From positions 1 to 41,421 of the forward strand of contig JAKSKY010000008.1 of NCBI GenBank assembly GCA_024401515.1: DNA of 41,421 bases, in the 5' to 3' direction. The translations under genes and the position numbers were made by a program. Numbering within the stretch: the stretch's first letter is position 1; every line of letters begins with the position of its first letter. The DNA comes from Paludibacteraceae bacterium. GTDB taxonomy: Bacteria; Bacteroidota; Bacteroidia; Bacteroidales; Paludibacteraceae. Below, in pieces: positions 13,098 to 30,499 of the stretch. The notes below the pieces were generated by a model. The model searched no databases. It saw only the letters and a program-made list of their open reading frames with translations, and was not told where the DNA came from.

Positions 13098-14321
13098 ATG
13101 GCTAGCGAAATTATATTGATCAGTATTCACGGTGAGGACCGTCCCGGTGTGACCGCCTCCGTGACTGAAATTTTGGGTAGATATGGCACCACCATCTTGG
13201 ATGTGGGCCAAGCGGATATCCACCACACCTTGTCGTTGGGTTTCTTGGTGAAAATCGATGATTCCAATGATTCGGGAAATATCATGAAGGAGATTCTCTT
13301 CAAGTGCTCCGAGTTGGGCATTCAGGTGCGATTCTCGCCTGTCTCTTCCGATGGTTATACCGAGTGGGCCGACAAGCAGGGTAGACATCGTTTCGTGGTG
13401 ACCATGCTGGGACATGTGATTACGGCTCGCCAAATGGCTTTGGTTTCCCAAGCGGTGGCTGAGCAACATTTGAATATTGATTCCATCAAGCGTCTTTCAG
13501 GTCGTCCCTCTTTGGATATGAGTGATGTGGAGAATGTCCGCTCATGTATCGAGTTCTCCGTGCGAGGCGAAATGATCGATAAGAGCGCTTTGTCCAAGCG
13601 ATTCATGGAGATCGCGGCGCAGGAACGTGTCGATATCTCTTTCCAAAAGGATGATTTGTACCGTCGAAACCGTCGTTTGGTCTGCTTCGATATGGATTCC
13701 ACATTGATTAAGACCGAGGTGATCGATGAGTTGGCGGATCGTGCCGGTGTGGGCGATCAAGTGCGTGCCATCACCGAGTCAGCTATGCGTGGTGAAATTG
13801 ATTTCAGCGAAAGTTTCCGCCGTCGTGTCGCTCTGTTGAAGGGTTTGGACGAGTCGGTGATGAGAGAGATTGCGGAGAATTTGCCAATCATGGATGGAGC
13901 GGATCGTTTGATGACAGTCCTAAAGCGTTGTGGTTATAAGATTGCGATTCTCTCCGGAGGATTCACCTATTTCGGCCGTTATTTGCAACAACGTTTTGGT
14001 GTGGACTATGTCTATGCCAACCAATTGGAGATTGAGAACGGTAAACTTACTGGAAACTATGTGGGCGACATTGTGGATGGCAAACGTAAGGCGGAGTTGT
14101 TGAATCTGATCGCCCAAGTGGAAAAGATTGAATTGGAGCAGGTGATTGCTGTGGGAGATGGTGCGAACGATCTTCCGATGTTGAATCTTGCCGGCCTAGG
14201 CATCGCCTTCCATGCGAAACCAAAGGTGAAGGAGAATGCGCAACAGGCGATCTCCACCATCGGATTGGATGGTATCCTCTACTTCTTAGGATTCAGGGAT
14301 TCGCACATAGAGGCGCTGTAG
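13098..14321 (+). CDS. serB: Phosphoserine phosphatase with N-terminal ACT domains
   Basis: A 407-residue enzyme for the last step of serine synthesis. Residues 1 to about 170 hold two ACT-like modules (LISIHGEDRPGVTASVTEIL; FVVTMLGHVITARQMALVSQ). The HAD phosphatase domain begins with CFDMDSTLIKTEVIDELA (about 196-213, both catalytic Asp present) and continues with SFRRRVALLKG, AILSGGFTYFG and VIAVGDGANDLPML. The ACT-ACT-HAD order is common in Bacteroidota SerB. A bidirectional hairpin terminator separates it from the convergent GldM-like gene. Confidence 0.93.
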   Translation: MASEIILISIHGEDRPGVTASVTEILGRYGTTILDVGQADIHHTLSLGFLVKIDDSNDSGNIMKEILFKCSELGIQVRFSPVSSDGYTEWADKQGRHRFVVTMLGHVITARQMALVSQAVAEQHLNIDSIKRLSGRPSLDMSDVENVRSCIEFSVRGEMIDKSALSKRFMEIAAQERVDISFQKDDLYRRNRRLVCFDMDSTLIKTEVIDELADRAGVGDQVRAITESAMRGEIDFSESFRRRVALLKGLDESVMREIAENLPIMDGADRLMTVLKRCGYKIAILSGGFTYFGRYLQQRFGVDYVYANQLEIENGKLTGNYVGDIVDGKRKAELLNLIAQVEKIELEQVIAVGDGANDLPMLNLAGLGIAFHAKPKVKENAQQAISTIGLDGILYFLGFRDSHIEAL

Positions 14322-14406
14322 GAAGAAATAAGATTTAAGAATTAAGATTTAAGTAAGTGTCCCATTGGATAAATTTTATCTGTTTGGATGCTTACGGTAT
14401 TAAACA

Positions 14407-14439
14407 AAAAGCCCCGAAGTCATCTGCTTCGGGGCTTTT
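14407..14439. terminator. Bidirectional terminator between serB and the GldM-like gene
   Basis: A 13-bp perfect stem AAAAGCCCCGAAG/CTTCGGGGCTTTT with loop TCATCTG. The A and T flanks give a T run on either strand, so it can end transcription from both sides. Confidence 0.9.
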
Positions 14440-14458
14440 ATGTTGTGATATGAGGATT

Positions 14459-15544
14459 TTAATGTCTTCTGATTTTTTCTCCTTCTTGGATAGTGACCTC
14501 AATTGGAGCGAGTTTGTGGGTCTTCCCGTCAGATCCTTTGGCCATGATGTCAGTGATGTAGAATGTCTCTTGATCACGAAGTTTAGAGATGTTCCTTTTC
14601 ATCTCAGGGGTAATCTCTCCGCTATTGGATTGAAGTACTACTGGAATGCCTTTGGTGTAGAATTTCATTTTGAATCCTGTCACCACATATCTAGCATCAA
14701 GATAATCCATCTCTAGCATCGCTGATATCTCTTGGGCAGTGAGCATTTTGTTTTTATTAACTTTCCCGCTCGTAGATAGTACACTATTGTCATTAAACTT
14801 GATGGTGCCACAGGGTGTTGGCAGAGGAAGAATGCGGAAATTTTTTTTTGAGAGGATCCTACTTTTCCCGGACTCTCTGGCATATACTGTAACGCAGCAG
14901 ATCGCTCCAGGAACGCGAGGTATAATGTAATACAAATTATTACCTTTTACTAGGGTACTATTAGAGCAATCTATTTCAATATCTCTACTTGAGTAGCCCG
15001 GAGCGGAAACTGAGATGGGGTTTCGAACACCTGCATAAAGGATATTCATCATATCAGCAGAGACGGTTGCCGTTTGTTCCGTAACTGTATACTCTCCGGA
15101 AAAGGGATACTCGCGTACGGTTCTTCCTCTTTGCCTTTCTCTAATATATCCAGTGTATTTATATTGTCCGATGGAACTGCCTGGAACGCGGTATTTCCCT
15201 TTGATAGGATTCCCATTCACATAAGTCTCGTATTGGCTTCTAGGGTCTGCGTTGAGCATGACGATATCTGCTTCATATATTTCGCCACGCAAGATATGCG
15301 TAGTTTTAGCGATGACCACCGCTTGCTTTTGGGTAGGGTCAATGGCGGATGTCTCCACGTAGTCCCTTTTTATGGGCGCTTTTCTTGCCATGTTATCCGA
15401 CGGTCTCGCGCGATATTCTGATGGTCGCTCGACGGCTTCGAAATCAGAGGCTATGGTTACGGTCTCATACGTTTCTTCTCCGAAGCAAAGTGCGTTGCTG
15501 GTAGCGAAAAGGGTTATCATCGCATATTTGTGCCAAATACTCAT
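14459..15544 (-). CDS. Secreted protein made of GldM/PorM periplasmic domains D2-D4
   Basis: A 361-residue protein with an N-terminal signal-like helix (about 1-20) in place of the GldM membrane helix and D1. After a linker rich in charge (24-70), residues 73-155 resemble GldM D2 (AVVIAKTTHILRGEIYEADI, YVNGNPI), 156-238 resemble D3 (ATVSADMMNILYAGVRNPIS, SVSAPGYSSRDIEI) and 239-353 resemble D4 (ILPLPTPCGTIKF, LDARYVVTGFKMKFY, FYITDIMAKGSDGKTHKLAP). GldM/PorM spans the periplasm and passes energy from the GldL motor to the T9SS. A soluble copy without the motor-binding helix cannot do this alone; it may bind or compete at the GldM partner site. It is last in the gldE-gldD-gldG transcript. The role is unknown. 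Confidence 0.8.
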   Translation of the reverse strand: MSIWHKYAMITLFATSNALCFGEETYETVTIASDFEAVERPSEYRARPSDNMARKAPIKRDYVETSAIDPTQKQAVVIAKTTHILRGEIYEADIVMLNADPRSQYETYVNGNPIKGKYRVPGSSIGQYKYTGYIRERQRGRTVREYPFSGEYTVTEQTATVSADMMNILYAGVRNPISVSAPGYSSRDIEIDCSNSTLVKGNNLYYIIPRVPGAICCVTVYARESGKSRILSKKNFRILPLPTPCGTIKFNDNSVLSTSGKVNKNKMLTAQEISAMLEMDYLDARYVVTGFKMKFYTKGIPVVLQSNSGEITPEMKRNISKLRDQETFYITDIMAKGSDGKTHKLAPIEVTIQEGEKIRRH

Positions 15545-15593
15545 AAGCTTATTATTATTTCTTTAAAATTCGTATGCATGCTTTCCACTGAAA

Positions 15594-16592
15594 TCAAAAA
15601 TACTCATACTGATACTCTTGGATTTCCATGTTTTGAACGTTGAGATGTTCTATTTGATTACCATATCGGTCGCAACGTAAATTTTTTAAGAACTTACCCT
15701 CTTTTGAGTAGACTTCAATGCGTAATCTCACCCCTTTCTTATAGATATGTTTCTGGGTGATTTCTCCATACTTTTCTTCTAGCACATTCCCGGATCTGTC
15801 GTATTTGATGATTTCGTGAGGATAAAGGACTGCCCAATAATTCATCTCAGCATCGTAGAGAACATATCCATTTTTGTCAAATCTTGTTGTCTTTTCTTTG
15901 TCTTGTGTGAAGCTTTTTACTAGGCCATTCTTGTGGTAGGTGTAGGTGTAGGTATGTTCCTCATATACCTCTCCATTGACTATTTCAGCTTTGACCAAAT
16001 TGCCATGTCTGTTATAGTGCCTCATCTCTTGCTTTTCTAGGTAATCCATTTGGGGACCATCGAAATTTTCGAGTCTTTTATATACATTGACTACAAATGA
16101 ACCATCTTGGGCGTAGAAAATGGAATCCACTGCTTCCCGCTCTTCCTTATGACATGTCAGCCTATTATCTGGAAGAAACTCCTTCTTTTCGAGATACACG
16201 CCATCAAATTCTCGTCGAACTCCAATCAGCATTCCTTTTTCATTGAAAAGGCAGACATTCTCGTTGTCACTGCTTTTCCCAGTTGTTATCTTAGTTGCCG
16301 CGTCATATTCGTATGTTGAAGTTGTAGTGGGCCTCCATTTATCGTATTGTACGGATATCACACGTCCTTGGGGGTCAAACTCCTCGCTAAACTGACCGGA
16401 TGTAAAAGATTTCACCTCTTTCGAAAGTCCTAATGCCCCTCTGTGGTCAATGTGGCTATGGTTCGCCCATTGGACAATCTCGGATGTCGCGACATATTGT
16501 GAAGGCAATGTTACCCTTGGTTGTACGGTTTGTCCATAAGCTACAGAGGATAGCGACAGGATGAATATGCCAAATATGTTCTTCATATTCAT
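15594..16592 (-). CDS. Secreted YD-repeat-like protein
   Basis: A 332-residue exported protein: signal peptide MNMKNIFGIFILSLSSVAYGQ, then degenerate repeats of about 20 residues with the YD/RHS-like pattern of aromatic strands and a G-x-V/L turn (FDPQGRVISVQYD, FNEKGMLIGVRREFD, YNRHGNLVKAEIV, YHKNGLVKSFTQD, FDKNGYVLYDAE, YDRSGNVLEEKYG, YSKEGKFLKNLRC, CDRYGNQIEHL). There is no RHS core or toxin tip. Such repeats form beta-rich shells in larger proteins; here only about eight to ten are present. It lies 21 bases after gldG and 49 bases before the GldM-like gene, with no promoter element seen between them. Function unknown. Confidence 0.65.
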   Translation of the reverse strand: MNMKNIFGIFILSLSSVAYGQTVQPRVTLPSQYVATSEIVQWANHSHIDHRGALGLSKEVKSFTSGQFSEEFDPQGRVISVQYDKWRPTTTSTYEYDAATKITTGKSSDNENVCLFNEKGMLIGVRREFDGVYLEKKEFLPDNRLTCHKEEREAVDSIFYAQDGSFVVNVYKRLENFDGPQMDYLEKQEMRHYNRHGNLVKAEIVNGEVYEEHTYTYTYHKNGLVKSFTQDKEKTTRFDKNGYVLYDAEMNYWAVLYPHEIIKYDRSGNVLEEKYGEITQKHIYKKGVRLRIEVYSKEGKFLKNLRCDRYGNQIEHLNVQNMEIQEYQYEYF

Positions 16593-16613
16593 ATCGGTAT
16601 ATAAATCAAACTG

Positions 16614-18314
16614 TTATTGTTTTAGCTCTCCGGTATATTTCCTTTTTCTGATGAAATTGAAAATGATGCCGAATAATCCTAATGCGAGGAGAGGAAGTGC
16701 CACATTGGTCACTTGCCAGAAGGTACGTTGTCCGATGATGGCGCGCTTGTTCAAAAGGCGGAGTTTGATCTCTCTGGAACGAAGGGACATCCAGCCGTCA
16801 TCGTCCGTCAGGTAGTTGACTGCGTTCAAAAGGAACTCCTTGTTGCCGAATTGTTGGTTCATGTATCGGTCGTAACCCAAAGGAAGGATGTTCATGTTTT
16901 CTCCTTTGCCTTGGATATCGTTGCGTATCACATCACCGTCGGCTATCACCACCATCTTGGTCGGTTTACTCTCCTTGATGGTCTTTTCTGAACTTTTGAT
17001 GCCCTCTGGTACCATTCTGTTGGCGAATGCGGATGGGAAGACTCCCTCTAGCACGGAACCGAGAATCATGTTCCTTTGGTTGAAATAGTAGCCACTCTTC
17101 TCCACATTGACCACATCCATGCTGACGATGGAAGGAACGTTCTGGACGTGGGTGCTATTGGAGGTGACGATCAAAGGCGTTTTCCTGACATTCAACTCCT
17201 CGTTCACAAAATCGATGGAGCTGGCGAACTCCGTCTTTACGGGTGCCAGATTCTTTGAAATAGGGTGGCTAGGCACGGTAAGCGCCAATGGAGAGTAGTA
17301 CCAAGGCATTGGTTCGTACTTCGGTTGGTCGCCCATTCTGGCGGTGTTGACTGGAATCAAAAGACATTGAACGTCTTGTACCAAGTTCGCGTTGATGCGC
17401 ACGCCATAGTTGAACAATTGGTCGCTGAGGTTCACATTGTTCTCGATACCGACCGTTTGGGAAGCCGTAGAGAGGCTATCCAAGGAGATGCGGGTACCAT
17501 CCAACAGCCAGAGCACCTTACCGCCCTTCATGATATATTGGTCGATGGCATATTTGTCTTTCTCGGAGAATTTCTCCGTAGGTCCTGCGATGATCAACGC
17601 TTTGTAGTTGTCAAGGATGGATGGATCCTCCGTGATGGAGCCACGGTCCACTTGGTAGTATCTGCTCAATTCTTGTGACATATCGTACACCAAGGGTTGT
17701 ATCCATTCACCGTGTCCCTCCAAAAAGGCAACTTTAGGCACGTCAGTGTTGATCATGAGACGGAGTGCGTCTGTGATTTCATATTCCAAGGTCTCGATAG
17801 AGGTGTTCAGGTTTTCCTCGCCTGATTTGCCGGGAATATTCTTCAAAAGGTTGACCACTTTGGATTTTCCGTTGTATTTGATCTCCATCCAAGGGAAGAC
17901 CACTTTTTGCATCTCTTGTCCCTCGTTGTCCCTGTCGTGAACCAAAATGCCTCGCATGCCACGGCTCTCCAACTCCATGTATTTCTTGTCGCGCTCCTCA
18001 TTGGTGGCGCCTTCCGATGGGTTGTCGAAGGTGTAACGGACTTTTGTGCCCGCATAGGCGTCTAATTCATCCAGCATCTCTTTGGCCGCTTTCCTAAGGC
18101 GTAGGAACCCAGCGTTCAAGTCACCGTCCAAGTAGACTGTGACATCCAATTCCTTGTCCAAAGAGCGAAGCAGATTCTTGGTATTGTCCGATAGGGAATA
18201 TCTCTTCTCTGAGGTTAGGTCAATGCGGAAGAAGTGACGCTCTGAGATGAAATAGATAGCCAATATGGCTACCGTGAAAAGAACGATATGTAGGACTCTC
18301 TTTATCATTTCCAT
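16614..18314 (-). CDS. gldG: GldG, ABC-transporter-associated gliding protein
   Basis: A 566-residue protein with a single N-terminal membrane helix (about 8-25), a large periplasmic part of the ABC_transp_aux type, and a C-terminal helix (about 535-556). The segments FFRIDLTSEKRYSLSDNTKNLL, VTVYLDGDLNAGFLRLR, VAFLEGHGEW, KALIIAGPTEKFSEKDKYAIDQY and VIADGDVIRN are typical GldG. In Flavobacterium GldG works with the permease GldF and the ATPase GldA. Neither is in this window, and gldF is not next to gldG as is usual. The start overlaps the end of gldD by 10 bases. Confidence 0.9.
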   Translation of the reverse strand: MEMIKRVLHIVLFTVAILAIYFISERHFFRIDLTSEKRYSLSDNTKNLLRSLDKELDVTVYLDGDLNAGFLRLRKAAKEMLDELDAYAGTKVRYTFDNPSEGATNEERDKKYMELESRGMRGILVHDRDNEGQEMQKVVFPWMEIKYNGKSKVVNLLKNIPGKSGEENLNTSIETLEYEITDALRLMINTDVPKVAFLEGHGEWIQPLVYDMSQELSRYYQVDRGSITEDPSILDNYKALIIAGPTEKFSEKDKYAIDQYIMKGGKVLWLLDGTRISLDSLSTASQTVGIENNVNLSDQLFNYGVRINANLVQDVQCLLIPVNTARMGDQPKYEPMPWYYSPLALTVPSHPISKNLAPVKTEFASSIDFVNEELNVRKTPLIVTSNSTHVQNVPSIVSMDVVNVEKSGYYFNQRNMILGSVLEGVFPSAFANRMVPEGIKSSEKTIKESKPTKMVVIADGDVIRNDIQGKGENMNILPLGYDRYMNQQFGNKEFLLNAVNYLTDDDGWMSLRSREIKLRLLNKRAIIGQRTFWQVTNVALPLLALGLFGIIFNFIRKRKYTGELKQ

Positions 18315-18883
18315 TCCAATGTGTTGATCAGTTTAATAATATCCTCCTTGATGTAATTCACCACTGGGGCGATGGAATCTTTGTTCGGATTGTTGTTGAA
18401 ATAGAGTGCGCCGCGGAGGAAGTGGTGGGTACTGTCCGACATCGCGAATTGGATGTTGGAGGCGGTGTTGCCCTTTAACTCATAGAACATACCATATACC
18501 TTGTGCTCGTCGTTGCAGTAGAATGCTGAGTTGATACCGTCCGCTTTGGCTACGTGGGGTTGGTAAACCAATTTGTACGCCTCTTCCGCCAATTGCTCGA
18601 AATTGCCCTGCACTTTGCGGTAGGTACCGTAGATGCGGGCGTTGCATTGGGGGTAGATGACGTCGATCCATACTGAATCCGCGTTGGTGGCGCTGGTCTT
18701 CACGTTGGAGACATTCTCCGCATACTCAAATGAGCATGGAAAACCCTCTTGGTGAAAAGTCTTGTAGTTCTTCTCCGGCAAGTCTATGCGGAAATAGCCT
18801 TTGGGTTTGGGCATATACTCGGTACATGCGCTGAAAATGGCTCCCAAAAGGAGCGCCAAGAGGATGTTATTCAGTTTTTTCAT
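18305..18883 (-). CDS. gldD: GldD lipoprotein
   Basis: A 192-residue lipoprotein. The signal peptide ends in a lipobox, LLGAIFSAC, with Cys 20 as the lipidated residue. The mature part opens with KPKGYFRIDLPEKNYKTF and continues PCSFEYAENV, WIDVIYPQCNARIY, GTYRKVQGN and a late HFLRGALYFNNNPNKDSIAPV, all characteristic of GldD, an envelope lipoprotein needed for gliding and linked to T9SS function. The gene overlaps gldE by 17 bases at its start and gldG by 10 at its end, so the three are translated in close coupling. Confidence 0.92.
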   Translation of the reverse strand: MKKLNNILLALLLGAIFSACTEYMPKPKGYFRIDLPEKNYKTFHQEGFPCSFEYAENVSNVKTSATNADSVWIDVIYPQCNARIYGTYRKVQGNFEQLAEEAYKLVYQPHVAKADGINSAFYCNDEHKVYGMFYELKGNTASNIQFAMSDSTHHFLRGALYFNNNPNKDSIAPVVNYIKEDIIKLINTLEWK

Positions 18884-20201
18884 TGTTGATCACGAATTTA
18901 ATCTCTTTGATTCTACGTTTGTCCGCGGAGATGATTTCGAAGTGGTAGTTCTCCACGTCGAATGTTTCTCCAGGAGTAGGAATGTATCCTTTGGATTCCA
19001 AGATGAGGCCCGCCAATGTGTCCGCATCTCCTGATATCTTTTCGAATACCTCTCGTTCCACATCTAATAGATGGTAGAACTCGGAAAGTAAAAGTTTACC
19101 GTCCAAAATGTAGGTGTTTTGGTCGATAGGGGTAATTTGTTTCTCCTCTTCGTCGTGCTCGTCGCAGATGTCGCCCACGATCACCTCGATGATATCCTCC
19201 ATGGTGACGATACCAGAGGTGCCTCCAAACTCGTCCACAACGACCGCCATATGGATATGCTTCTGTTGAAACTCCTTCAGCAAATCGTCGATTTTTTTAT
19301 TCTCCGGTACGAAATAGGCCTCGCGGATATGGTCTTGCCATTTAAAATCCTTCTCTTGGTCCATGTATTGAAGGAAGTCCTTGATGTAGAGGATGCCCTT
19401 CACATAGTCGATGGAGTCTTCGTAGACGGGAAGACGTGAATATTCCGACTCGCGGATGATCTTCAATACTGTATCGAAGTCGCTGTTATAGTCCACATCC
19501 ACAATATCCACGCGTGGTTGCATGATTTCGTCCACGTTGATTTTGCCGAAGTTCATGACGCCTAGCAAAATCTCCTTCTCATCGACTGAATCGGCGTTGG
19601 AGAGGTTCAAATTGTCGGAGATGTCCTCGATGGCCGCACTGTGTTGGGTGCGAGACTCCAACCTGCGTTCCACCACGCCTGTTTTCATCATCAGCATTTT
19701 GGTGAATGGGGCGAAGAACAGACCTAACCAATGCATTAGATTGGCACTTTCGCATAGGTGTTTTTGGCTGTTTTTATCAGCCATCTTCTTAGGAATATAT
19801 TCCGCGAATAGGGCTAAAAGAAGTGCGATGATGGTAAAGGAGATGATCCATTTGGCCCATACGGGCAAGGCGGTCATGGCGAAGAAATACCACAAAAGCA
19901 ACGATGTGGTCATGATTCCGCTGACGATCAGCGCATATCTGGTGGAAATGACGCTACCCAATGTTTTCAACGGATCCTCTGAAAGCGTCTTTAGACGGTC
20001 GAATTTTTTTTCGTTGGATATTTTTATCTCAGCGATTTCGTTGCTGTTCAGGGAGAAGAATTCAGACTCGAAGAAGGCTGTGAAAGATAGCAAGATAAAC
20101 GATACTAGCGCGACAACAACAGCCGCAACTACAATTGCGCAACTCCAAAACTCTGGAGTATTGATACTATCCCAAAGGGATGTTTGAAGTGGTATATCCA
20201 A
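18867..20201 (-). CDS. gldE: GldE, CNNM/CBS/CorC-type membrane protein
   Basis: A 444-residue inner-membrane protein. A DUF21 (CNNM) transmembrane domain of about four helices (about 20-170, with FFESEFFSLNSNEIAEIK) is followed by two CBS motifs (NVDEIMQPRVDIVDVD, SEYSRLPVYED, HMAVVVDEFGGTSGIVTMED; about 215-345) and a CorC_HlyC domain near the C-terminus. The layout is that of GldE, encoded with gldD in gliding and T9SS-bearing Bacteroidota and thought to act with it; related CNNM proteins handle divalent cations. It starts the minus-strand operon, with a -7 element about 50 bases upstream. Confidence 0.87.
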   Translation of the reverse strand: MDIPLQTSLWDSINTPEFWSCAIVVAAVVVALVSFILLSFTAFFESEFFSLNSNEIAEIKISNEKKFDRLKTLSEDPLKTLGSVISTRYALIVSGIMTTSLLLWYFFAMTALPVWAKWIISFTIIALLLALFAEYIPKKMADKNSQKHLCESANLMHWLGLFFAPFTKMLMMKTGVVERRLESRTQHSAAIEDISDNLNLSNADSVDEKEILLGVMNFGKINVDEIMQPRVDIVDVDYNSDFDTVLKIIRESEYSRLPVYEDSIDYVKGILYIKDFLQYMDQEKDFKWQDHIREAYFVPENKKIDDLLKEFQQKHIHMAVVVDEFGGTSGIVTMEDIIEVIVGDICDEHDEEEKQITPIDQNTYILDGKLLLSEFYHLLDVEREVFEKISGDADTLAGLILESKGYIPTPGETFDVENYHFEIISADKRRIKEIKFVINNEKTE

Positions 20202-20418: not shown

Positions 20419-22398
20419 TTAATACATTTTATAGGTGGTTTTCAAGACACGGAATTCCGTACGACGGTTGATGGAATCCGCGATATCCTTTTGCTCGTCC
20501 GTCAAGGTGTCGATGTATTCCTCGTCCAATGCGGTATCCTCTTTGAGGAAGTTGTATTTCTTCTTGATGTTCTTATCCACCACGACTGGTTGTGTCTTAC
20601 CATAACCCTTGGCTGTGAGTCGATCCGCCTCGATACCGCCTTTGATCAGGTAATCGACAACGGATTGAGCACGTTTACCGGACAACTGCAAGTTGCCGTC
20701 GGCGGAACCGATACGGTCTGTGTGGGCACCGATTTCGATGGTGATGTTCGGGTTGTCGTTCAACACCTTCACCAATTTATCCAATGCGGCCGATGACTCT
20801 GGGGTCAAAGTCGCCTTTCCGAATTCGAAGAAAATGTTGTCCAAGCCTACTGGTTTGCTGAGAGAGGCGAGGGTGAAATTGATTGGGAAGGTCTTGGAAT
20901 CCTCCAAATCCACTGTGACAGCATCCTCCTTTTGGTTCAGATAACCGCGGCAGTTGCCTAGTAGCACATAATTCACCCCTTTGTTGAGGGAGATTTTGAA
21001 TGTACCATCCTTCTTGGTTTGAACCTTCGTATTGGTTCCGTCATCACCTACGATGCGAACGGTCGCGCCACCGATAGGGTCTCCTGACATCTCGGTCACT
21101 TTACCGTCAATCAGGAACTCCACTTCTGGCAATTCGAAGGAAAAGATCTTATCGTAACCTTTCTTTTCGCCTCTATTGGAAGAGAATAGTCCTTTCTCTT
21201 TGCCTTGTATGAAGGAGATGCCGAAATCATCTCCGTTGGAGTTGATAGGCGCCATCATATTGGTGACGCTCCAGTTGTCCTCGTCGATCTCATTGGCATA
21301 GAAGATATCCAATCCACCGAAGCCTGGGTGGCCAGTAGAGGAGAAGTAGAGTGTCCCGTTTTCACGCATGAAAGGGAACATCTCGTCGCCAGGTGTGTTG
21401 ATGGTAGGCCCCAAGTTCACAGGGGCGCCGAATGTGTTTCCTGTCTTCTCGCATCGCCAAATATCTTTACCTCCCAATCCGCCTGGCATATCAGAGACGA
21501 AGTAGAGATACTTGTCGTCTGGTGAAATGGTAGGGTGGGCGAATGAGATGGAACTGTCGGGCGATAGTTGGACCTCGGTCACTTTGCCCCATTTACCTCC
21601 GGAGCGTTGTACCATGCATATCTGCGCACCTCTATTCTCTCCCTTTTGTGTGACGCAACGGGTGAAATACATGGTCTTGCCATCCGCGCTGAAAGAGACG
21701 GATCCTTCGTCCATGTCCGTGTTGATGGCGCCCTCCAAAGGTTCTAGGTTGTCCCATTCACCGAGGGAATTCCTTTTTGCGGTGAAGATATCGTTGTTCC
21801 TCAAACCGGTGATTTTACTATTTCCTCCACCGACCTCCTTATTCTCTCTGGATGAGTTGAAATAGACGATGTCACCGTCTCCGCCAGGGAAAGAAGGAGA
21901 GAACTCCGCACGTTTGGAGGAGAAAAACTCCTCTTTCTTGACGATGTAGCGTGTCGGATTCTTCATCCATTCCATCATCTCTTCGGCGGATTTCTTACCG
22001 TTGATGGCCCTGATGTCGTCTGGGTGGGAGATTAAGTAGAGGTCGTACATCGTCCTTGCGTCCTTGGGCTTCATGTTTTTGCGAAGCACATCCGCTGAAT
22101 AGAGATATACGATGGAGTCTTTGTAATTGTAACGTGTGGCGTTGGCGAAGGCGCGTTCGGCACGGTCGTTGATGTTCGTGAGACGATAACAATCACCCAA
22201 TTTAAAAGCTGAATAGGCCTTGAGTTGTCTATCCTTCAATTTCACTTTAGGGTAAACCTTGTTGTAGAGAGTGGCCGCATTGTAGTATTCTCCAATCTCG
22301 TACTTTTTGTCCGCCTTCTTCAATTTCGCCTTGACGGAGCAACCGCAGAGCAGGGTGAGCGAGAAGAGACAGATGAGGTATTTTGTTAATCGAATCAT
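20419..22398 (-). CDS. porE: PorE-like T9SS lipoprotein (TPR - PD40 - CRD - OmpA)
   Basis: A 659-residue lipoprotein starting at the ATG at 22398, which gives a clean signal with lipobox SLTLLCGC; the frame is open from a TTG at 22422. Domains in order: TPR-like helices (about 25-145), PD40/WD-like propeller repeats (about 155-420, e.g. PDDKYLYFVSDMPGGLGG, GTLYFSSTGHPGFGGLDIF), a carboxypeptidase-regulatory-like domain (about 428-500) and an OmpA peptidoglycan-binding domain (about 515-659, EIGAHTDRIGS, LSGKRAQSVVDYL). This order and length are those of PorE of Porphyromonas gingivalis, which tethers T9SS parts to peptidoglycan. Other PD40-OmpA paralogs exist, so orthology is likely rather than certain. 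Confidence 0.82.
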   Translation of the reverse strand: MIRLTKYLICLFSLTLLCGCSVKAKLKKADKKYEIGEYYNAATLYNKVYPKVKLKDRQLKAYSAFKLGDCYRLTNINDRAERAFANATRYNYKDSIVYLYSADVLRKNMKPKDARTMYDLYLISHPDDIRAINGKKSAEEMMEWMKNPTRYIVKKEEFFSSKRAEFSPSFPGGDGDIVYFNSSRENKEVGGGNSKITGLRNNDIFTAKRNSLGEWDNLEPLEGAINTDMDEGSVSFSADGKTMYFTRCVTQKGENRGAQICMVQRSGGKWGKVTEVQLSPDSSISFAHPTISPDDKYLYFVSDMPGGLGGKDIWRCEKTGNTFGAPVNLGPTINTPGDEMFPFMRENGTLYFSSTGHPGFGGLDIFYANEIDEDNWSVTNMMAPINSNGDDFGISFIQGKEKGLFSSNRGEKKGYDKIFSFELPEVEFLIDGKVTEMSGDPIGGATVRIVGDDGTNTKVQTKKDGTFKISLNKGVNYVLLGNCRGYLNQKEDAVTVDLEDSKTFPINFTLASLSKPVGLDNIFFEFGKATLTPESSAALDKLVKVLNDNPNITIEIGAHTDRIGSADGNLQLSGKRAQSVVDYLIKGGIEADRLTAKGYGKTQPVVVDKNIKKKYNFLKEDTALDEEYIDTLTDEQKDIADSINRRTEFRVLKTTYKMY

Positions 22399-22456
22399 AA
22401 TCTTTATCTGTTTATTACTCAAACGTGGAATTCAGTGTGATATTTTCCTGATCGGT

Positions 22457-23570: not shown

Positions 23571-25544
23571 TTACTCTATGTAGAGTGATTTTCCGACAGG
23601 ATATTTAACCCTGTAAGTGAAATCAAACTTCTTCTCTTCTCCAGGTTGGAGGGTTGCCTTCCAGGTGATGATACCTGTGTTTCTGTCTACAGTGGCGCCT
23701 TGGCTTTGTAGCAACTCAATCTCGATATCCTCATCGTTGGAGATTGGGTATTGATCCTTGACGGAGACCTCAGCCGGAACATTCTTGGTGTTGGTCAATG
23801 TGATTCTCCAGGTGCGGACAGCCTTGTTGCTGGAGATCATGACTTGTCGGGATGAGTTGGATTGTACGAGCTCTCTGTTGACGGTGATGCCCTTATCCGC
23901 ACCGACTGACAAATCGACATAATCCTTCATGGCGTTGGTAGACAAGTAGCTTTGTCCTTTGAACTCGTTGTTCCAGAAGATGTAGACTGGACCATCCAAC
24001 AATTTGTACTTGGTCCACTCAGGAATCACGGCTGAGATGTAAGCCTTCTTTTCCAATTTAGGTAACACTACATACTCGTAGTTGGCGGCTATCTTGTAGT
24101 CGTTCATACGGATGGTGGTTGGGGTATTGTTGGAAGGAATGGTGTACTTGTTAGGAACCGTGACGGTGAATGGCGCCAAATTCAACCATCCTGGGACAAT
24201 CTCTTCCGCCTCCATCTCTCCTTCAGAAAGCAATGCTGGTTTCAACTCTTTGTGGTTGAGGTCGCCGGAAGTGGAGGAAGAGTTACTGCCCAACATGATT
24301 TTGGAAACGGTTGAGCTAGTTTCCAATTTAGACTCCTCATCCTCTTTGTTTACTGCCTCGGCGAATTCCAACTGCTTCTTTTCAAAGGCCTCGGCCATGT
24401 TGATGTTGATGACGCTCTCTGTCCTGTCGTTCACGTTGATTGTTTGGGTAGTGTAACCCAAGTGGGAGAATTCCAACTCACATCTCTCAGGGACATTGAT
24501 TTCGTAAAAACCGTTTTGGTCGGAAATCGCGTATAGATTGGTTCCCTTGGCCACTACGCATACGTAAGGAAGTGGACGCATGAAATTGGAGATGATACCT
24601 TTGATGGTCTTGGTGTTTTGCTTTACCATGGCTTGTGATTTTGCCACGTATTGGGCGGAGTTGCCGAAGTACAACTTGTCGCTGGCGATGCTTGGTTGCA
24701 TTTTATCCTCCGTAGGATCCTCTGTTGAGATTCGAATGGTGATGTTGCTCCAATCCTCGTGTACGTTTTGTCTTACGCTGGCGCCGTAGATAAGTTGCAT
24801 CGGTTGTTTGTCGTTCGTGATGCGGGCCTCATAAATAGGGTCCCATCCAGCCTCTGAAACATAGTAGTCCAAACCGATGTTGGTTTCCGTCTCTTTGTCA
24901 GTTTTAACCACCAATTTCACAGTGTATGAAGATTCGTTGGCGGTGAGGTTCAAAGCGATTTGCTTTTGGGTCAAATCGATGTATTGGTTGGATAGCTCCT
25001 TCTTTTTCTTCTTCAATCTGTTTTGCTCGTTCTCGATTTCAGTCATCTTCTTGTGGTAGAAGGTGGTGATTTTTGCAAGTTCGTCAGCAGTGATGCCCTC
25101 AACACCCTTGATGCTCTTATTGGATTTCATCATCTCCTTTTCAGAGGCGTAGACCTCCAAAAGGCTATTGGTTTCAGCGATGGAGTCCTTGATGGCCTCA
25201 ATGGTCTTGGATAATTTGGTGGTCTCTTCCAACACCTTCTTTTGGTTGGAGAAATCCAACTCGTGGGTCAAAGACATCAAGGCGACGTTTTCGTTCGCGA
25301 TCTTGACCAAGATGCTCTTGGGATCGATGGAAGGGGAGAGTGATCTGACAATTAGGTTGGAGACGCCTGCGGGGAGGGTGACATTGGTGGATCGCTCCAC
25401 TTCCGCACCTGAACGGTAAACGGTTACATGTTCGATCTCCATTGGTAGGTCTTTCACGACCGGAGCGTCATTGTTAGCGAAAGAGTTCAATGGTAATGCT
25501 AAAAGGTTGAATAGCATTAACTTGATAGCCTTGTTTTTCTTCAT
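23571..25544 (-). CDS. DUF4140/DUF4139 (mucoidy-inhibitor MuiA-like) secreted protein
   Basis: A 657-residue protein from the ATG at 25544, which gives a proper signal peptide MKKNKAIKLMLFNLLALPLNSFA; the frame is open for another 101 codons upstream but those overlap the promoter and are not coding. The N-terminal DUF4140 part has IEHVTVYRSGAEVERS, followed by a coiled coil (about 100-195) rich in Lys/Glu. The middle carries a carboxypeptidase-regulatory-like insert (IKGIISNFMRPLPYVCVVAK, DQNGFYEINVPE, FSHLGYTTQTINV). DUF4139 resumes to the C-terminus. The biochemical role of the family is unknown; location is periplasmic or at the surface. Confidence 0.85.
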   Translation of the reverse strand: MKKNKAIKLMLFNLLALPLNSFANNDAPVVKDLPMEIEHVTVYRSGAEVERSTNVTLPAGVSNLIVRSLSPSIDPKSILVKIANENVALMSLTHELDFSNQKKVLEETTKLSKTIEAIKDSIAETNSLLEVYASEKEMMKSNKSIKGVEGITADELAKITTFYHKKMTEIENEQNRLKKKKKELSNQYIDLTQKQIALNLTANESSYTVKLVVKTDKETETNIGLDYYVSEAGWDPIYEARITNDKQPMQLIYGASVRQNVHEDWSNITIRISTEDPTEDKMQPSIASDKLYFGNSAQYVAKSQAMVKQNTKTIKGIISNFMRPLPYVCVVAKGTNLYAISDQNGFYEINVPERCELEFSHLGYTTQTINVNDRTESVININMAEAFEKKQLEFAEAVNKEDEESKLETSSTVSKIMLGSNSSSTSGDLNHKELKPALLSEGEMEAEEIVPGWLNLAPFTVTVPNKYTIPSNNTPTTIRMNDYKIAANYEYVVLPKLEKKAYISAVIPEWTKYKLLDGPVYIFWNNEFKGQSYLSTNAMKDYVDLSVGADKGITVNRELVQSNSSRQVMISSNKAVRTWRITLTNTKNVPAEVSVKDQYPISNDEDIEIELLQSQGATVDRNTGIITWKATLQPGEEKKFDFTYRVKYPVGKSLYIE

Positions 25545-25610
25545 AATAAATCTGTAGAATTTATTGATAAACCGGAAGGCGCGTTTGTCGCCACCTTCAC
25601 CTAAACATGG

Positions 25611-25618
25611 CAAAGTTA
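25611..25618 (-). promoter_or_regulatory. -7 element for the DUF4139 gene
   Basis: TAACTTTG on the minus strand, a TAnnTTTG match about 67 bases before the chosen start at 25544. Its position supports that start over longer versions of the frame. Confidence 0.6.
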
Positions 25619-25672
25619 AGAAAATGCGGTTGAATTTTTGTCCTTTATAAGGTGAAATTGCAATAATTTTTT

Positions 25673-25680
25673 TATATTTG
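25673..25680 (+). promoter_or_regulatory. -7 element for the amidohydrolase gene
   Basis: TATATTTG, about 70 bases before the ATG at 25750, divergent from the element at 25611-25618. Confidence 0.55.
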
Positions 25681-25749
25681 GTTATTCCCCCATGACGAAA
25701 CCCTTCGTTGTTGGGGTGTGCGGAAGTACAATTAGTTAATGGGATTGAT

Positions 25750-27000
25750 ATGGGAAAGAATAATTCATTATACATAGAGCATCTCCTTTTGAATGGAGAA
25801 TATGTCAATGTGCGTATGGCGGATGGTATTTTTGCCGCTATTGGCAAGGATGTGAAGCCGGAGGCTGGGGATGAAATATTCCAAACGGATAAGAATTTGG
25901 CGATCGTACCGCCCTTCTATAATATGCACACTCATGCGGCCATGACCCTTTTGCGCGGCTATGCCGACGATATGGAGCTCTTCACTTGGCTAAACGAACA
26001 CATCTGGCCGTTTGAGGCGAAAATGACGCCAGAGGATGTGCGTATCGGTAGCGAATTGGCGATTTTGGAGATGGTGAAATCGGGAACCGTTTTCTTCAAT
26101 GATATGTATTGGAACACGGAGGAGACTTGGAAGGTTTTGGACCGTATGGGCATCCGTGGTTGCATGGGTATCACCTTGATCGACACGATAGGGGAGGAGC
26201 GTATCCAGCAGTCATTCGAACTTTTGGAGCGATTGAGTGGTAAGAATCCTAGAATTCAGATGTCCATCGCCCCTCATGCGGTTTATACCGTGGGCGAAAA
26301 ATTGTGGATCCGCGCGGCGGAGGCAGCCCGTAAGTGTGGCGCCAAAATCCATTTCCACCTCTCCGAGACGGAGAAGGAGATCAAGGATTGTATCGCGGAA
26401 CATGGTTTGTCTCCTGTCCGTTGGTTGGATCAATTGGGTGTTCTTGGGCCTGATTGCATCGCCGCCCATGTAGTACATGTGGACGACGAGGAGTTGGCTA
26501 TCTTGAAGGAGCGTGGTGTGACGATCGCCCACAATCCAGTCTCCAATATGAAACTCTATTCAGGCTATTTCAGATCGAAGCCAGCCATCGATTCAGGCTG
26601 TCGGGTGACCATCGGAACAGACGGCTGCTCTTCCAATAATAATTTGGATATGCGGGAGGAGACCAAGTGCGCCTCCATGATCGCTAAATGCAACTATGGT
26701 CCTGAAACGTTGCCAGTGGACATGGCGGTGGATTGGGCGACCAAGAATGGTGCGGAGGCCTTTGGCGTCAATGGTGGAGAAATCAAGGTGGGCAAGGTGG
26801 CGGACGCTTTGCTGGTTGATTTGGATAATGAACGTTTTGTCCCTTGCTACAATTTCAACTCCAATTGGGTCTACGCTTCCAGCAATGAGGCGTTCGACAC
26901 ACTTATATGTGATGGCAAAATCATTATGAAGGATCGTAAGATGGCGGAGGAGCGGCGCATCATAGCTGAGGCGAAGGCTTGTTGCAAGAAATGGATGTGA
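25750..27000 (+). CDS. mtaD: MTA/SAH deaminase-type amidohydrolase
   Basis: A 416-residue metal-dependent hydrolase of the TRZ/ATZ-MtaD branch of the amidohydrolase superfamily. The metal ligands are visible: NMHTHAAMTLLRGYADD (His 60 and 62 region), HLSETEKE (about 203), AAHVVHVDDEE and GTDGCSSNNNLDMREE (Asp, about 290). GTVFFNDMYW and AHNPVSNMKLYSG are typical of deaminases of S-adenosylhomocysteine, 5'-methylthioadenosine or adenosine. ATG at 25750 is chosen; an upstream in-frame TTG would add 14 residues without family support. The gene is monocistronic, between its own -7 element and terminator. The precise substrate is uncertain; chlorohydrolase-like relatives look similar. Confidence 0.78.
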   Translation: MGKNNSLYIEHLLLNGEYVNVRMADGIFAAIGKDVKPEAGDEIFQTDKNLAIVPPFYNMHTHAAMTLLRGYADDMELFTWLNEHIWPFEAKMTPEDVRIGSELAILEMVKSGTVFFNDMYWNTEETWKVLDRMGIRGCMGITLIDTIGEERIQQSFELLERLSGKNPRIQMSIAPHAVYTVGEKLWIRAAEAARKCGAKIHFHLSETEKEIKDCIAEHGLSPVRWLDQLGVLGPDCIAAHVVHVDDEELAILKERGVTIAHNPVSNMKLYSGYFRSKPAIDSGCRVTIGTDGCSSNNNLDMREETKCASMIAKCNYGPETLPVDMAVDWATKNGAEAFGVNGGEIKVGKVADALLVDLDNERFVPCYNFNSNWVYASSNEAFDTLICDGKIIMKDRKMAEERRIIAEAKACCKKWM

Positions 27001-27319: not shown

Positions 27320-30300
27320 TCATTTCACCACCATTTTCCTACTAGCCTTGTAGCCATTTGCTGACATCGTGTAGTAGTAGATGCCACTTGGCAGTTGATT
27401 GGTTGGAATTGTGGTGTAGTAGGTTCCCGCCTCCAAGTTGGCATTGACTATCGTCATCACTTGAACCCCCAATTCATTGTAAAGGAGAAGAGACACGTGT
27501 GTGTCGTCTCCGATGGAGTAGGTGATTGTCGTCTCTTCTATGGTTGGGTTAGGGGTGTTCTGTTCCAATCCATAACCTTCCCGCTCCTCTGCCCAGGTGT
27601 CGTAGTTGGCGGTCAATCCACAACCATTGTTGGATATTTTGTGTCCAGCGAAGGCTTTCGACCAGCTTTGGTACTCTTTGTTCACAGTGCTGGTGCGAAT
27701 GGTGGTGTTTTGCGAATTGTCCCCATAGAGAAATTTGTTGATGAAGGCTTGCGCTGCGCTGTTTTGACGACTGGAGGCCTGACAGTGGGAGTGGCCTCCC
27801 TCGATGACATAACCGAAACGATCCTCGATGCCCATAGCCTTCCAGACCTCTTCGGCACCCTTCAAAGAGATGTAGCCTGACTCATCGCCCAACCACTCAT
27901 AGTCCGGATTACCGAATGCCAAGAAGGCACGTGGCGCGATCATGGCGATCAACTCGTGGTGGTCGTAAGGGATTTGGCTGGTCTTACCGTTGAAGTTGTT
28001 CTTGAAGCTGGTGAGGAACCAATCGTAGTTGGTATTGGAGATGCCCTCCACGCTGCTACCGATTTTCTCGCTCACACGCCACGAGTTGATACCGCCTCCA
28101 CCAGACTCTTGTGCGATGGTAAGTGCGATACGCTCATCGAAAGCGCCTGCGAACAAGGCCATTTTACCTGCGTAAGAACAGCCTGTGACAGCGATGTGGC
28201 CAAGGTCTGCCTTGATTTGGTCCTTCACGATTTCCAAACCATCGATTAAGCGGCTGATACCCCATGACCAAGCACAGTAGTCCGCCTTGGTGTTGAATGT
28301 GCCGGGATAGAGTTTGTAGAATGGATCGTTTTGGCTTCTGCCACCGCCGCCGAAACCGCTGTTGTACTCTGCGATTTGCGAATGGGTGAATGGCACTTGG
28401 ATGCATTTGGAGAAGTAACTCGAGCTCAAGCTTCCCGTATTTCCGTCCATGCCGATGACGATAGGGTGGGGTCCATTCCCGGAAGGGACTGATATCTTGC
28501 TGGTTAAGGTTAAAGTGTTGCTGCCGTTATAAATTTTCACGGTCAATGTTCCTCCGCTGTAGGAGGCCTCTAACTTGTCGAATTTCGGTTTCTCTCCGAT
28601 CTCCCAGAATTCGATCTCACGTTTGATCTCGTTACGACGACATGACCAGTCGCAGAAATTGGTCACACGTCCACTGCCGTCTGCCCATTCGAATGGATCT
28701 GGCAATGTGGAGCAGCTCTTCAAATTGTTTTTGTTCAAAGAGGATGGTTCCGCACAATCGGCACCAGTGTTCTCCACGTTGTAGCTGATAGGATATACGC
28801 CTGATTCATTGACAGAACCGCCGCCTTGGTGTACGCCTGGGTTCTGTTCTCCTGGATCTTTTTCGCCCGGATTCTCAACTACTGTCTCATCGGAAGTGCA
28901 CTTCACATCATCCACGTAGAAATCGATCAAATCAGCGTCGCTGCCCGAATCCTTGGTCTGGATGTAGAGTTTGACGCTGGTGGCGGAGGAGGGAAGGGTG
29001 ATATCACCAGTAACCTTGGTCCATGTTTTACTTTTGGCGGAAACGGAACCGATGGTCTTGTATTGAGTCTCTCCGCCGTCGCTGTATTGGAAACATAGTT
29101 CGAATCCACATTCACCTAGGCCAGAGCCGCTTTCAGCAGGTGTCTCAGGAGCGGAAGAGACACTCATGCCTTCCACGATTTTGTAGTAAGCCTGCTTAGG
29201 TTTGTATTGGCTGTTGAATATCAACGGGTTTTGGCTAGACCTCCAGCTCATACCATCTTGGGTGCCCCAGAAGACGACAGCGCTGATGTTCTCTTTGAAC
29301 TCCTTATAGATGTCGAACAAATCCTTGATGTAGGAGGCTTGCGCACTCTCGCTGGAGTTGGTGACGTCCAACTCGGTCACTTGGATGTCGCAGCCTATCT
29401 GAGCGAACCGTTTCACAGCATTTCTGTAACGGTTCTTGTCCGGATAGTTGGTCGCCAAGTGTGATTGCATGCCGACTCCGTCGAGATTTCCCTCCTTGTA
29501 GCATGACTCCACGATTTTAGCGATGCTCTCCAACTTTCCGTCGTTGTACTCATTATAATCGTTGTAATACAGTTTACAGCTTTTAGGCGCATATTTTCTC
29601 GCATACTTGAAGGCGTTGTGGATGAACTCGTCGCTTTTGTAGATCTTCACCCAGTAAGAGGCTCCGTTTTGAGTGTTGTTGTCGCCTCCATCGCGAAGGC
29701 CACCTTGATCTTTGAATGCCTCGTTCACCACGTCCCATGCGTAGATGTTAAGTTTAGGATAGGCTGAAGTGACAGCCTCGATTGTGTTTTTAATGTAGTT
29801 TTCCATCCGTTGGTTCATCACCTCCTTGGAGACGTCCGCTCCATTGTTGGAGAAGTTCTCCTTGAAGAACCAGGAAGGGGTTTGGCTATGCCATACGAAA
29901 CAGTGGCCTCTGAGCGGAATGTTGTTGTCGCTGCAGTATTGAAGAATGGTTTTGGCCCCTTGCCCGAGACGTACTTGTGGGTTGACGTTGTTTCCCTTGG
30001 ATTGGCTGGCGCTTTGGTCCAACATTGCGTCAGGTTTCAACTCGTTTTCTGGTGTCACACTGTTAAAGTGTGTTTGAACCAGCTGTTTTGCCTGCGACTT
30101 GCCGGCTTCCATGGAGGAGAGGCAAGTTCCGATCTTGAAGTAATCTGCATAAGCTGCCTTGAGGGAGATGATATCCCCTGTAGCCGCGCTGCCTCCGCCC
30201 GTGGATGTGGAGAAGGAGCTTCCGTCGAAATAGACATAAGCCTCAACGTCGTAGGTGCCTCCCGCAACGAAATTTGTTGAGGATAGTGCTGGTCCGTTCC

Positions 30301-30499
30301 AGTAATTTCCTCGATTTGAGACTTTGAGGGATTTTGTGCCCGAGTGGGCTACAGAAGAGGAACCGGCGATCGTTTCGCCTCCTCTCGCCGACCAACTTCC
30401 AGCTCCGGATTCGAAGTCCTCTTCGATCACGGTACCGGCAGTCGCTGTACACAACGCGGCGAATAATCCCATAGGGATCATTAGGTACTTTTTGTCCAT
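27320..30499 (-). CDS. Multidomain xylanase: GH10 within a CBM, CE15-like esterase, T9SS type A sorting domain
   Basis: A 1059-residue secreted enzyme. Signal peptide 1-21. Residues 24-95 look like the first half of a CBM4/9-type module (EEDFESGAGSWSARGG, HSGTKSLKVSNR, VEAYVYFDG). GH10 follows at about 110-445, with acid/base Glu 260 in AWDVVNEAF and nucleophile Glu 376 in VTELDV. Residues 464-534 look like the missing second half of the CBM (WTKVTGDITLP, DLIDFYVDDVKC). A Pro/Glu/Gly linker leads to a CE15-like glucuronoyl esterase (about 565-930) with Ser 775 in GCSYAGK and a late His in EGGHSHC; the usual motif is GCSRxGK. About 975-1059 is a Por_Secre_tail (NTPNPTIEETTITYSI, GIYYYTMSANGYKASRKMVV), so export by T9SS is expected. 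It should cut xylan and perhaps xylan-lignin ester links. Confidence 0.88.
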   Translation of the reverse strand: MDKKYLMIPMGLFAALCTATAGTVIEEDFESGAGSWSARGGETIAGSSSVAHSGTKSLKVSNRGNYWNGPALSSTNFVAGGTYDVEAYVYFDGSSFSTSTGGGSAATGDIISLKAAYADYFKIGTCLSSMEAGKSQAKQLVQTHFNSVTPENELKPDAMLDQSASQSKGNNVNPQVRLGQGAKTILQYCSDNNIPLRGHCFVWHSQTPSWFFKENFSNNGADVSKEVMNQRMENYIKNTIEAVTSAYPKLNIYAWDVVNEAFKDQGGLRDGGDNNTQNGASYWVKIYKSDEFIHNAFKYARKYAPKSCKLYYNDYNEYNDGKLESIAKIVESCYKEGNLDGVGMQSHLATNYPDKNRYRNAVKRFAQIGCDIQVTELDVTNSSESAQASYIKDLFDIYKEFKENISAVVFWGTQDGMSWRSSQNPLIFNSQYKPKQAYYKIVEGMSVSSAPETPAESGSGLGECGFELCFQYSDGGETQYKTIGSVSAKSKTWTKVTGDITLPSSATSVKLYIQTKDSGSDADLIDFYVDDVKCTSDETVVENPGEKDPGEQNPGVHQGGGSVNESGVYPISYNVENTGADCAEPSSLNKNNLKSCSTLPDPFEWADGSGRVTNFCDWSCRRNEIKREIEFWEIGEKPKFDKLEASYSGGTLTVKIYNGSNTLTLTSKISVPSGNGPHPIVIGMDGNTGSLSSSYFSKCIQVPFTHSQIAEYNSGFGGGGRSQNDPFYKLYPGTFNTKADYCAWSWGISRLIDGLEIVKDQIKADLGHIAVTGCSYAGKMALFAGAFDERIALTIAQESGGGGINSWRVSEKIGSSVEGISNTNYDWFLTSFKNNFNGKTSQIPYDHHELIAMIAPRAFLAFGNPDYEWLGDESGYISLKGAEEVWKAMGIEDRFGYVIEGGHSHCQASSRQNSAAQAFINKFLYGDNSQNTTIRTSTVNKEYQSWSKAFAGHKISNNGCGLTANYDTWAEEREGYGLEQNTPNPTIEETTITYSIGDDTHVSLLLYNELGVQVMTIVNANLEAGTYYTTIPTNQLPSGIYYYTMSANGYKASRKMVVK

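Follow-up and report, generated by a model that had tools for sequence, protein, structure and literature searches.

The window, by which we mean the whole stretch of 41,421 nucleotides of Paludibacteraceae DNA analysed here, encodes a real GldM-derived paralog that consists of the GldM domains D2, D3 and D4 and has neither the motor helix nor the helical domain D1. An intact GldM is encoded in the same genome, the short proteins form one group in the GldM tree, and the residues in which they differ from GldM are clustered. Our leading interpretation, put forward tentatively, is that the protein is an exported, self-pairing D2-D4 rod with a changed D4 tip, an accessory protein that probably acts at the T9SS ring.

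Domain organization and N-terminus

The three GldM-like domains expected from the original prediction all score above their Pfam cut-offs and follow each other in the order D2-D3-D4 over residues 68-353 (Table 1). A Pfam search at E ≤ 1 gave no match of the window protein to GldM_1st, the D1 helical domain (PF12081). The GldM equivalog model TIGR03517 aligns over profile positions 232-521 of 524 with 177.3 bits, slightly below its cut-off of 180. The closest solved structures are the D2-D4 part of PorM (6ey5, E 5e-40) and GldM (6ey4, E 3.5e-14), and the sequence profiles predict a GldM D2-D4 fold. Identity is 32% to the GldM of the same genome, 35% and 28% to the two GldMs in alignment A1, and 42-43% over the matched part to GldMs of genus g5.

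According to alignment and hydropathy, the canonical motor helix has no counterpart in the window protein, which starts with a short hydrophobic segment followed by a linker. The idea that a signal peptide and a linker had replaced the motor helix and D1 is thus borne out for the missing helix and D1 and for the linker, whereas the signal peptide is weak by hydropathy. The N-terminus is the least hydrophobic among nine D2-D4 relatives, with a best 10-residue mean of 1.43 as compared to 2.60-3.10 in the other eight, and for this reason secretion is only likely, by family resemblance. A T9SS C-terminal sorting domain (TIGR04183 / PF18962) was not found in the window protein at E ≤ 1, which rules it out as a T9SS cargo protein.

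Table 1. Positions of the GldM paralog, its parts and its neighbours in the window, and of D4-type protein ends at other loci (marked by locus).
Feature	Position	Strand	Basis or remark
GldM D2-D4 paralog, 361 aa, ATG start	14459..15544	-	ORF, Pfam, NCBIfam, structure-database matches
N-terminal hydrophobic segment, residues 1-22, probable weak signal peptide	15479..15544	-	Hydropathy and alignment with clearer relatives
Linker replacing D1, residues 23-67 (about 46 residues)	15344..15478	-	No PF12081 match; alignment
D2 (GldM_2nd), residues 68-155	15080..15343	-	Pfam 57.9 bits, cut-off 24.4
D3 (GldM_3rd), residues 158-238	14831..15073	-	Pfam 65.9 bits, cut-off 25.2
D4 (GldM_4th), residues 242-353	14486..14821	-	Pfam 69.8 bits, cut-off 24.6
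Cluster of positions conserved differently from GldM, residues 96-105, inferred second D2 strand	15230..15259	-	
D4 hairpin region, residues 298-315	14600..14653	-	Without the DSMG of most GldMs; carries M315
serB, convergent, beyond the insert	13098..14321	+	TIGR00338, 268 bits
Stretch missing between gldG and serB in seven congeners (insertion)	14322..16613	not applicable	
Terminator-like hairpin, 13 pairs, 3' of the paralog gene	14407..14439	-	
Co-inserted YD/RHS-repeat protein, 332 aa	15594..16592	-	ORF, Pfam
gldG	16614..18314	-	TIGR03521, 566 bits
gldD	18305..18883	-	TIGR03512
gldE	18867..20201	-	TIGR03520
PorE-family T9SS protein	20419..22422	-	NF052230
D4-type end outside GldM	L140:4165-5049	-	
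D4-type end outside GldM	L142:3712-4203	-	
D4-type end outside GldM	L139:2867-4606	+	
D4-type end outside GldM	L038		
D4-type end outside GldM	L039		
D4-type end outside GldM	L040		
D4-type end outside GldM	L141		

Host genome and full-length GldM

The genome to which the window belongs (2.70 Mb in 164 contigs, 88% complete) harbors on another contig a GldM of 529 amino acids with all four domains, accompanied by GldN (202 bits), GldL (TIGR03513, 189 bits) and GldK (TIGR03525, 572 bits). The gene in the window therefore lies outside the gldK-L-M-N cluster and is a true paralog, as had been proposed; the alternative that it is a rearranged original GldM is ruled out by the full-length protein. 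The same genome gives a SprA match of 2380 bits and 66 T9SS C-terminal tails at E ≤ 0.001, 60 of them over the cut-off. The window itself encodes, at 27320-30499, a protein of 1059 amino acids that has a T9SS sorting tail in addition to GH10 xylanase and glucuronyl esterase domains, and at 23571-25847 a protein similar to Mucoidy inhibitor A (TIGR02231), whose DUF4139 match contains a carboxypeptidase-regulatory-like domain.

A protein of 306 amino acids with GldM D1 and D2 only is encoded on contig C13 of G000 (L005 835-1755; PF12081 38.4 bits, PF21601 70.6 bits). It stops where D3 would begin and is the complementary half of the rod. G012 has a counterpart, a 307-aa frame on contig C97; D1 and D2 were assigned in the G000 protein.

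Genomic neighbourhood

All 15 other species of the genus possess gldG. Within the 1.5 kb that follow it, convergent serB comes directly in seven of the 15, a different gene, which we take to encode a DNA clamp, in another seven, and the contig ends in one. In the window, 2.29 kb with the YD gene and the GldM paralog separate gldG from serB. Since gldG abuts serB in seven of 15 congeners, the YD and GldM-like pair is an insertion, and an ancestral gldEDG-linked gene is ruled out. The position after gldE-gldD-gldG, which had been held to strengthen the T9SS link, is therefore no argument for an old T9SS role. GC content is 37-46% in the inserted stretch and 46-50% in most of the surrounding segments (range 42-52%); the repeats that flank the insert are short and chance-like only.

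The gaps of 21 bases after gldG and 49 bases after the YD gene, together with the 13-pair hairpin, make co-transcription of the paralog gene with gldE-gldD-gldG possible, and the location may place it under T9SS-related expression. Terminator-like sites in the region number four as compared to 3.9 expected from shuffles, with the hairpin listed in Table 1 alone being long. For the YD protein, no homolog was detected at E ≤ 1e-8 in the 15 congeners, and the ORFs of 20 loci, which comprise other copies as well as relatives and controls, gave no match at E ≤ 1; it does not, therefore, regularly accompany the short paralogs.

Matches to T9SS or gliding models at E ≤ 1e-5 were found for none of the 13 NCBIfam-scanned neighbours of the other D2-D4 copies; this set leaves out a 1075-aa ORF beside L041 and a RarA-like ORF beside L028, and includes the RarA-like counterpart beside L027. 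An all-against-all comparison of ORFs from eight D2-D4 loci and the 8-23.5 kb part of the window revealed no conserved partner gene overall. Besides the paralogs, genes are common only to L025 and L029, to L025 and L031 (one weak pair, 39%) and to L027 and L041. The gene shared by the last two, presumably carB-like, is represented by ORFs that are 90% identical and lies beside the D2-D4 gene of G006 (0.1 kb) and 6.6 kb from that of G019. The D2-D4 genes of L027 and L041 are possibly located in the same chromosomal region of two genera.

Distribution of D2-D4 paralogs

The window protein is one of a family, a point that the original prediction had missed. A second D2-D4 gene in the genome of the window is located on C161, and a third is split over the ends of two contigs, C115 and C126. 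The third paralog has a near-identical intact copy in a different metagenome bin, at L050 on a contig of 3.1 kb, with 99.6% identity over 832 bases and 94.2% over 395 bases to L033/L032 and with other flanking genes. Because the similarity to L050 also covers the 3' end of the gene before it, a clean single-gene cassette fails as a description of this paralog. The L050 contig is binned as 'Bacilli bacterium', which is probably a misbinning.

A profile of ten short proteins (A2) was run over 358 genomes of the family and revealed nine D2-D4 genes, distributed over six genomes and two genera (E ≤ 1e-72, 376-491 bits); full-length GldMs score at most 296 bits, a gap that is partly by construction because all nine genes were already in the profile. 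Beyond the profile members, the search at E ≤ 1e-72 gave no further D2-D4 gene and one more D3-D4 gene. None of the nine D2-D4 genes has an internal stop, and eight are covered from the N-terminus. With the intact copy representing the split third paralog, Pfam D2, D3 and D4 are all over the cut-off in six of the nine proteins, whereas those of L027, L028 and L041 have D2 and D4 over the cut-off and D3 at 18.9-19.3 bits as compared to the required 25.2.

Outside the genome of the window, A2 scored at most 235 bits, for a 528-aa frame, among 295 sampled genomes of the order, and in a sample of 365 genomes of the phylum only the genome of the window passed 1e-75. The contigs with relatives of the short paralogs seem to be from Paludibacteraceae and Bacteroidales, some of them from horse-feces bins. 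A scan of genome_contigs with the window protein as single query found no relative, and a search with the same protein of two phage and plasmid collections gave one 'phage' scaffold and one plasmid-labelled record only. The scaffold (L146, MT839621.1, 'Bacteriophage sp.', unverified) has a GldM-like stretch with 29.8% identity and is perhaps a bacterial contig; in the record L147 (NZ_OY725749.1), labelled as a plasmid of Parabacteroides distasonis, a porP/sprF-like gene and a full gldL-gldM-gldN set follow one another. A GldM-type match is present in 278 of 300 family genomes, and co-occurrence of the short paralogs with GldM therefore says little. The short GldM paralogs are a small, fast-evolving and partly mobile group that is seen in one family.

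Shorter forms and D4 ends on other proteins

A D4 profile (A6), constructed from nine short proteins and two lipoprotein-like long ones and run over the 358 family genomes, extended the set to other architectures. G014, G015 and G075 each have a gene for a protein of 244-250 amino acids with a hydrophobic N-terminus followed by D3 and D4. In G020, a 293-aa protein has MORN repeats between the hydrophobic N-terminus and D4 (Pfam MORN 116.9 bits, GldM_4th 27.8 bits with a cut-off of 24.6), and in G133 a 157-aa protein seems to carry D4 alone after such an N-terminus (A6 80 bits, no Pfam match at E ≤ 0.01). Frames of 573-619 amino acids from G003, G014, G015, G010 (cut by the contig end) and G034 encode proteins that end in D4 and whose N-termini suggest lipoproteins. 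The D4 assignment of this last type is based on the A6 profile, because Pfam GldM_4th is slightly below the cut-off in two (24.2 and 23.4) and misses E 0.01 in two others. In a sample of 247 genomes of the order (cut-off 1e-20), A6 gave only the genome of the window and two GldM-sized frames.

Within the family, D4 thus follows D2-D3, D3 or MORN repeats, terminates lipoprotein-like proteins and seems to occur by itself as well; the N-terminus of all these forms is of the export type, and the tip shows a distinct signature. It is conceivable, if rather doubtful, that the GldM D4 tip is a portable C-terminal docking module that would attach varied exported proteins to the T9SS ring or to variants of GldN, with some of the genes crossing genera.

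Phylogeny and spread

The tree was calculated from 43 proteins and 289 D2-D4 columns, with eight GldMs from other families included. Its twelve short proteins, nine of the D2-D4 type (L050 standing for the third paralog) and three of the D3-D4 type, are split from all full-length GldMs with support 100. The full-length GldMs of genus g5 lie on the side of the short proteins (support 94). The GldMs of other families fall among those of the family with weak support, and the branches of the short proteins are long; the root of the GldM tree is uncertain because the other-family proteins are no clean outgroup. The simplest reading of the tree would be one loss of the helix and D1 in or near g5 and later spread.

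For the D3-D4 form, spread between genera is evident from the sequences. The genes of g4 and g1 (L111 as compared to L036/L037) encode proteins with 84% amino acid identity, whereas the GldMs share 50-51%, the g4 GldM being taken from another g4 species, G050. The DNA similarity of the two genes is confined to about 758 bases over the gene.

Residue signatures in D2 and D4

The D2-D4 fragment of PorM is a dimer with swapped strands, namely strands 1-2 of D2 and strand 7 of D3 (PMC5790014). For numbering, PorM positions were placed on 6ey5 as position + 216, anchored at Met-325 in the alignment. Two of three swap-contact sites have the same residue in the window protein (Met-325 as M166, Ala-318 as A159), whereas the third, Ala-391, is S232. 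In D4, Ser-460 of the P. gingivalis PorM cross-links with Ala-241 of PorN (PMC12421860), and with this mapping it is the serine of the DSMG hairpin.

A DSxG motif near the C-terminus is found in 36 of 42 distinct full-length GldMs, of which 24 matched the pattern and 12 were recognized by eye as DSMG among the 18 unmatched C-termini; it is present in none of the nine D2-D4, three D3-D4 and three lipoprotein-like D4 proteins. Loci with short proteins among the 48 that were scanned did not count as full-length GldM, apart from two cut ones, L077 and L093. The motif is no strict family mark, since six of the 42 GldMs lack it.

To compare conserved positions, the 42 GldMs were thinned to 27 at 90% identity and set against eight short paralogs, the near-identical L028 being left out. 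The two groups differ in 12 of the 63 positions that are conserved in both, and nine of these 12 fall in residues 96-105 (D2) and 298-315 (D4) of the window protein (permutation p 0.0075, 400 shuffles, with thresholds set after a first look at the data). Positions 96 and 105 are unlike GldM in all eight short paralogs. M315 is invariant in the ten A2 proteins, where 85-90% of GldMs have Q. Ser-306 and Thr-312 were dropped as gains of the short proteins, since T312 is shared with GldMs and S306 with one GldM at least. Four D4 residues (K264, F291, D339 and E349) are invariant in a 12-sequence alignment that includes two GldMs.

We infer that residues 96-105 form the second D2 strand, one of the swapped ones, and residues 298-315 would correspond to the PorN-contact hairpin and what comes next. 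The two clusters can be read as separate pairing and a changed D4 tip. Lost binding would leave a similar trace at the hairpin, but M315, which stays invariant across copies with 33-40% identity to the window protein, speaks for a constraint particular to the short proteins.

Evolutionary rates

For one close D2-D4 pair, dN/dS is 0.44 (NG86) or 0.65 (YN00). Two D3-D4 pairs gave 0.38-0.42, as compared to 0.20 and 0.11 for two GldM pairs (NG86). A further D3-D4 pair has too few changes to be informative (NG86 1.6 at dS 0.006); for the pair of third paralogs, dN is 0 and dS 0.018.

The GldM encoded in the genome of the window has 51 unique changes as compared to 16 in that of the sister species G012 (chi2 18.3), with the strongest excess in D2 and D3 (30 vs 9, chi2 11.3). 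In the same comparison the numbers are 7/11 for GldL and 20/11 for GldN (neither significant), 40/24 for GldG (chi2 4.0) and 7/13 for SerB. Acceleration of GldM is what interference between paralogs would predict; it is a single case, because G006, which has one paralog, shows no GldM excess as compared to G003, and recombination may have contributed to it.

Possible function

The properties of PorM fragments bear directly on what a D2-D4 protein could do. In two-hybrid assays D2-D3 of PorM self-associates and isolated D4 does not, while D4 alone binds PorN and binding of PorK requires D2-D3 plus D4 (PMC5790014). The window protein therefore comes close to the part of PorM that, once excised, can fold, dimerise and bind the ring. 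Further reports add a model with one D4 of the PorM dimer on PorN and the other free (PMC12421860), an AF3 model in which the PorM tip sits between copies of PorN, at weak confidence and with little conservation (PMC12635249), and contacts of the GldM periplasmic domain with GldK, GldN and GldO (PMC8986121).

For an accessory protein at the ring, the following sequence of events can be proposed. In or near one genus of the family, the region coding for the motor helix and D1 would have been lost from the gene and a signal peptide acquired. The protein would be exported to the periplasm and fold as a D2-D4 rod. The signature of its D2 swap strand differs from that of GldM, so the D2/D3 swap would join two copies of the paralog and not one copy and GldM; the rod would present a re-specialised D4 tip. 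The site of action would probably be the GldK/GldN ring or a ring-bound partner, where the paralog would occupy or bridge sites left free by motor-linked GldM and in this way tune the contact of motor and ring. It could not transmit force, because it has no GldL-binding helix. The earlier suggestion that the protein may 'cap, regulate or extend' the GldM contact is possible in this setting; it would need a changed contact, because the D4 hairpin is altered in every short paralog examined.

Loss of ring contact is as easily read from the hairpin as re-specialisation is, the DSMG loop being absent from all nine D2-D4 paralogs and present in 36 of 42 GldMs. This absence also suits a repurposed Ig-like rod without a T9SS role, which, having lost its contacts to motor and ring, would serve as a stand-alone binding protein in the periplasm or at the surface, perhaps with the co-inserted YD protein. 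The lack of T9SS proteins among the 13 scanned neighbours and the inserted position of the gene in the window likewise count for such a repurposed rod and against the accessory protein, and co-occurrence with GldM is of little weight. Fast evolution and patchiness also fit a role outside T9SS, as do the spread of the D3-D4 gene between genera, with its much higher identity than that of GldM, and the fusion of D4 to MORN repeats. The GldM acceleration is seen in one genome only, and GldG leans the same way. Against a role outside T9SS stand the four D4 residues that remain invariant when two GldMs are included, the restriction, to date, to a family in which almost every sampled member has a GldM, and the YD protein being no regular partner. 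We consider such a role a serious alternative, though a less probable one than an accessory function at the ring.

The paralog could also be a partner of GldM itself, forming mixed dimers through the D2/D3 swap and so half-motor arms. The oligomerisation of PorM D2-D3 alone (PMC5790014), the two retained swap-contact sites and the acceleration of the same genome's GldM in D2 and D3 agree with this. Avoidance of mixed dimers explains that acceleration equally well, however, and the third contact is changed to S232 and positions 96 and 105 differ in all eight short paralogs, which suggests separate pairing; we regard mixed dimers as improbable. Least probable of all is a decaying duplicate without function, for which the patchy distribution, the higher NG86 dN/dS (0.38-0.44 as compared to 0.11-0.20 for GldM) and the sub-threshold D3 in three of nine proteins could be quoted, but nine genes are free of internal stops, M315 and similar residues are invariant across divergent copies, and dN/dS is below 1 in the pairs with enough changes.

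The short proteins bear on the question of how force travels from the GldLM motor to the GldKN ring, for which a recent study models contact of D4 and GldN at weak confidence (PMC12635249). With their changed contact hairpin, the natural D2-D4, D3-D4 and D4-bearing proteins are reagents for mapping the contacts of the arm and for competition. Binding of the short proteins to the ring would mean that T9SS includes accessory parts which have gone unrecognised as a layer of the machine; without such binding, a motor arm would have turned into a general periplasmic scaffold. Taken together, the data suggest that the rod tip of the T9SS of this gut bacterium and its relatives is a reusable part.

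Comparison with known systems

A shortened GldM is not described in the titles and abstracts of the open-licence literature searched. Similar to GldM and PorM (TIGR03517; PF12081, PF21601, PF21602, PF12080), the window protein has D2, D3 and D4 in order and at full length. Unlike them, it has no motor helix, D1 or DSxG motif, starts with a hydrophobic N-terminus and linker, is encoded outside gldKLMN, and has changed signatures in the D2 strand and the D4 hairpin. It does not belong to GldM proper, from which it is set apart by the missing helix and D1, the score below the model cut-off, the operon and the contact motif.

A close counterpart is the PorM 224-516 fragment of 6ey5, which covers nearly the same span and is an autonomous dimer in the crystal (PMC5790014). 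That fragment was made by protease, whereas the window protein is genome-encoded as such. As a paralog of a T9SS core part the protein further resembles GldO, a paralog of GldN, and GldJ, a paralog of GldK, which take part in the ring or track (PMC10202324, PMC9127263 and PMC12635249). In contrast to the window protein, GldO and GldJ are paralogs of ring parts with known roles.
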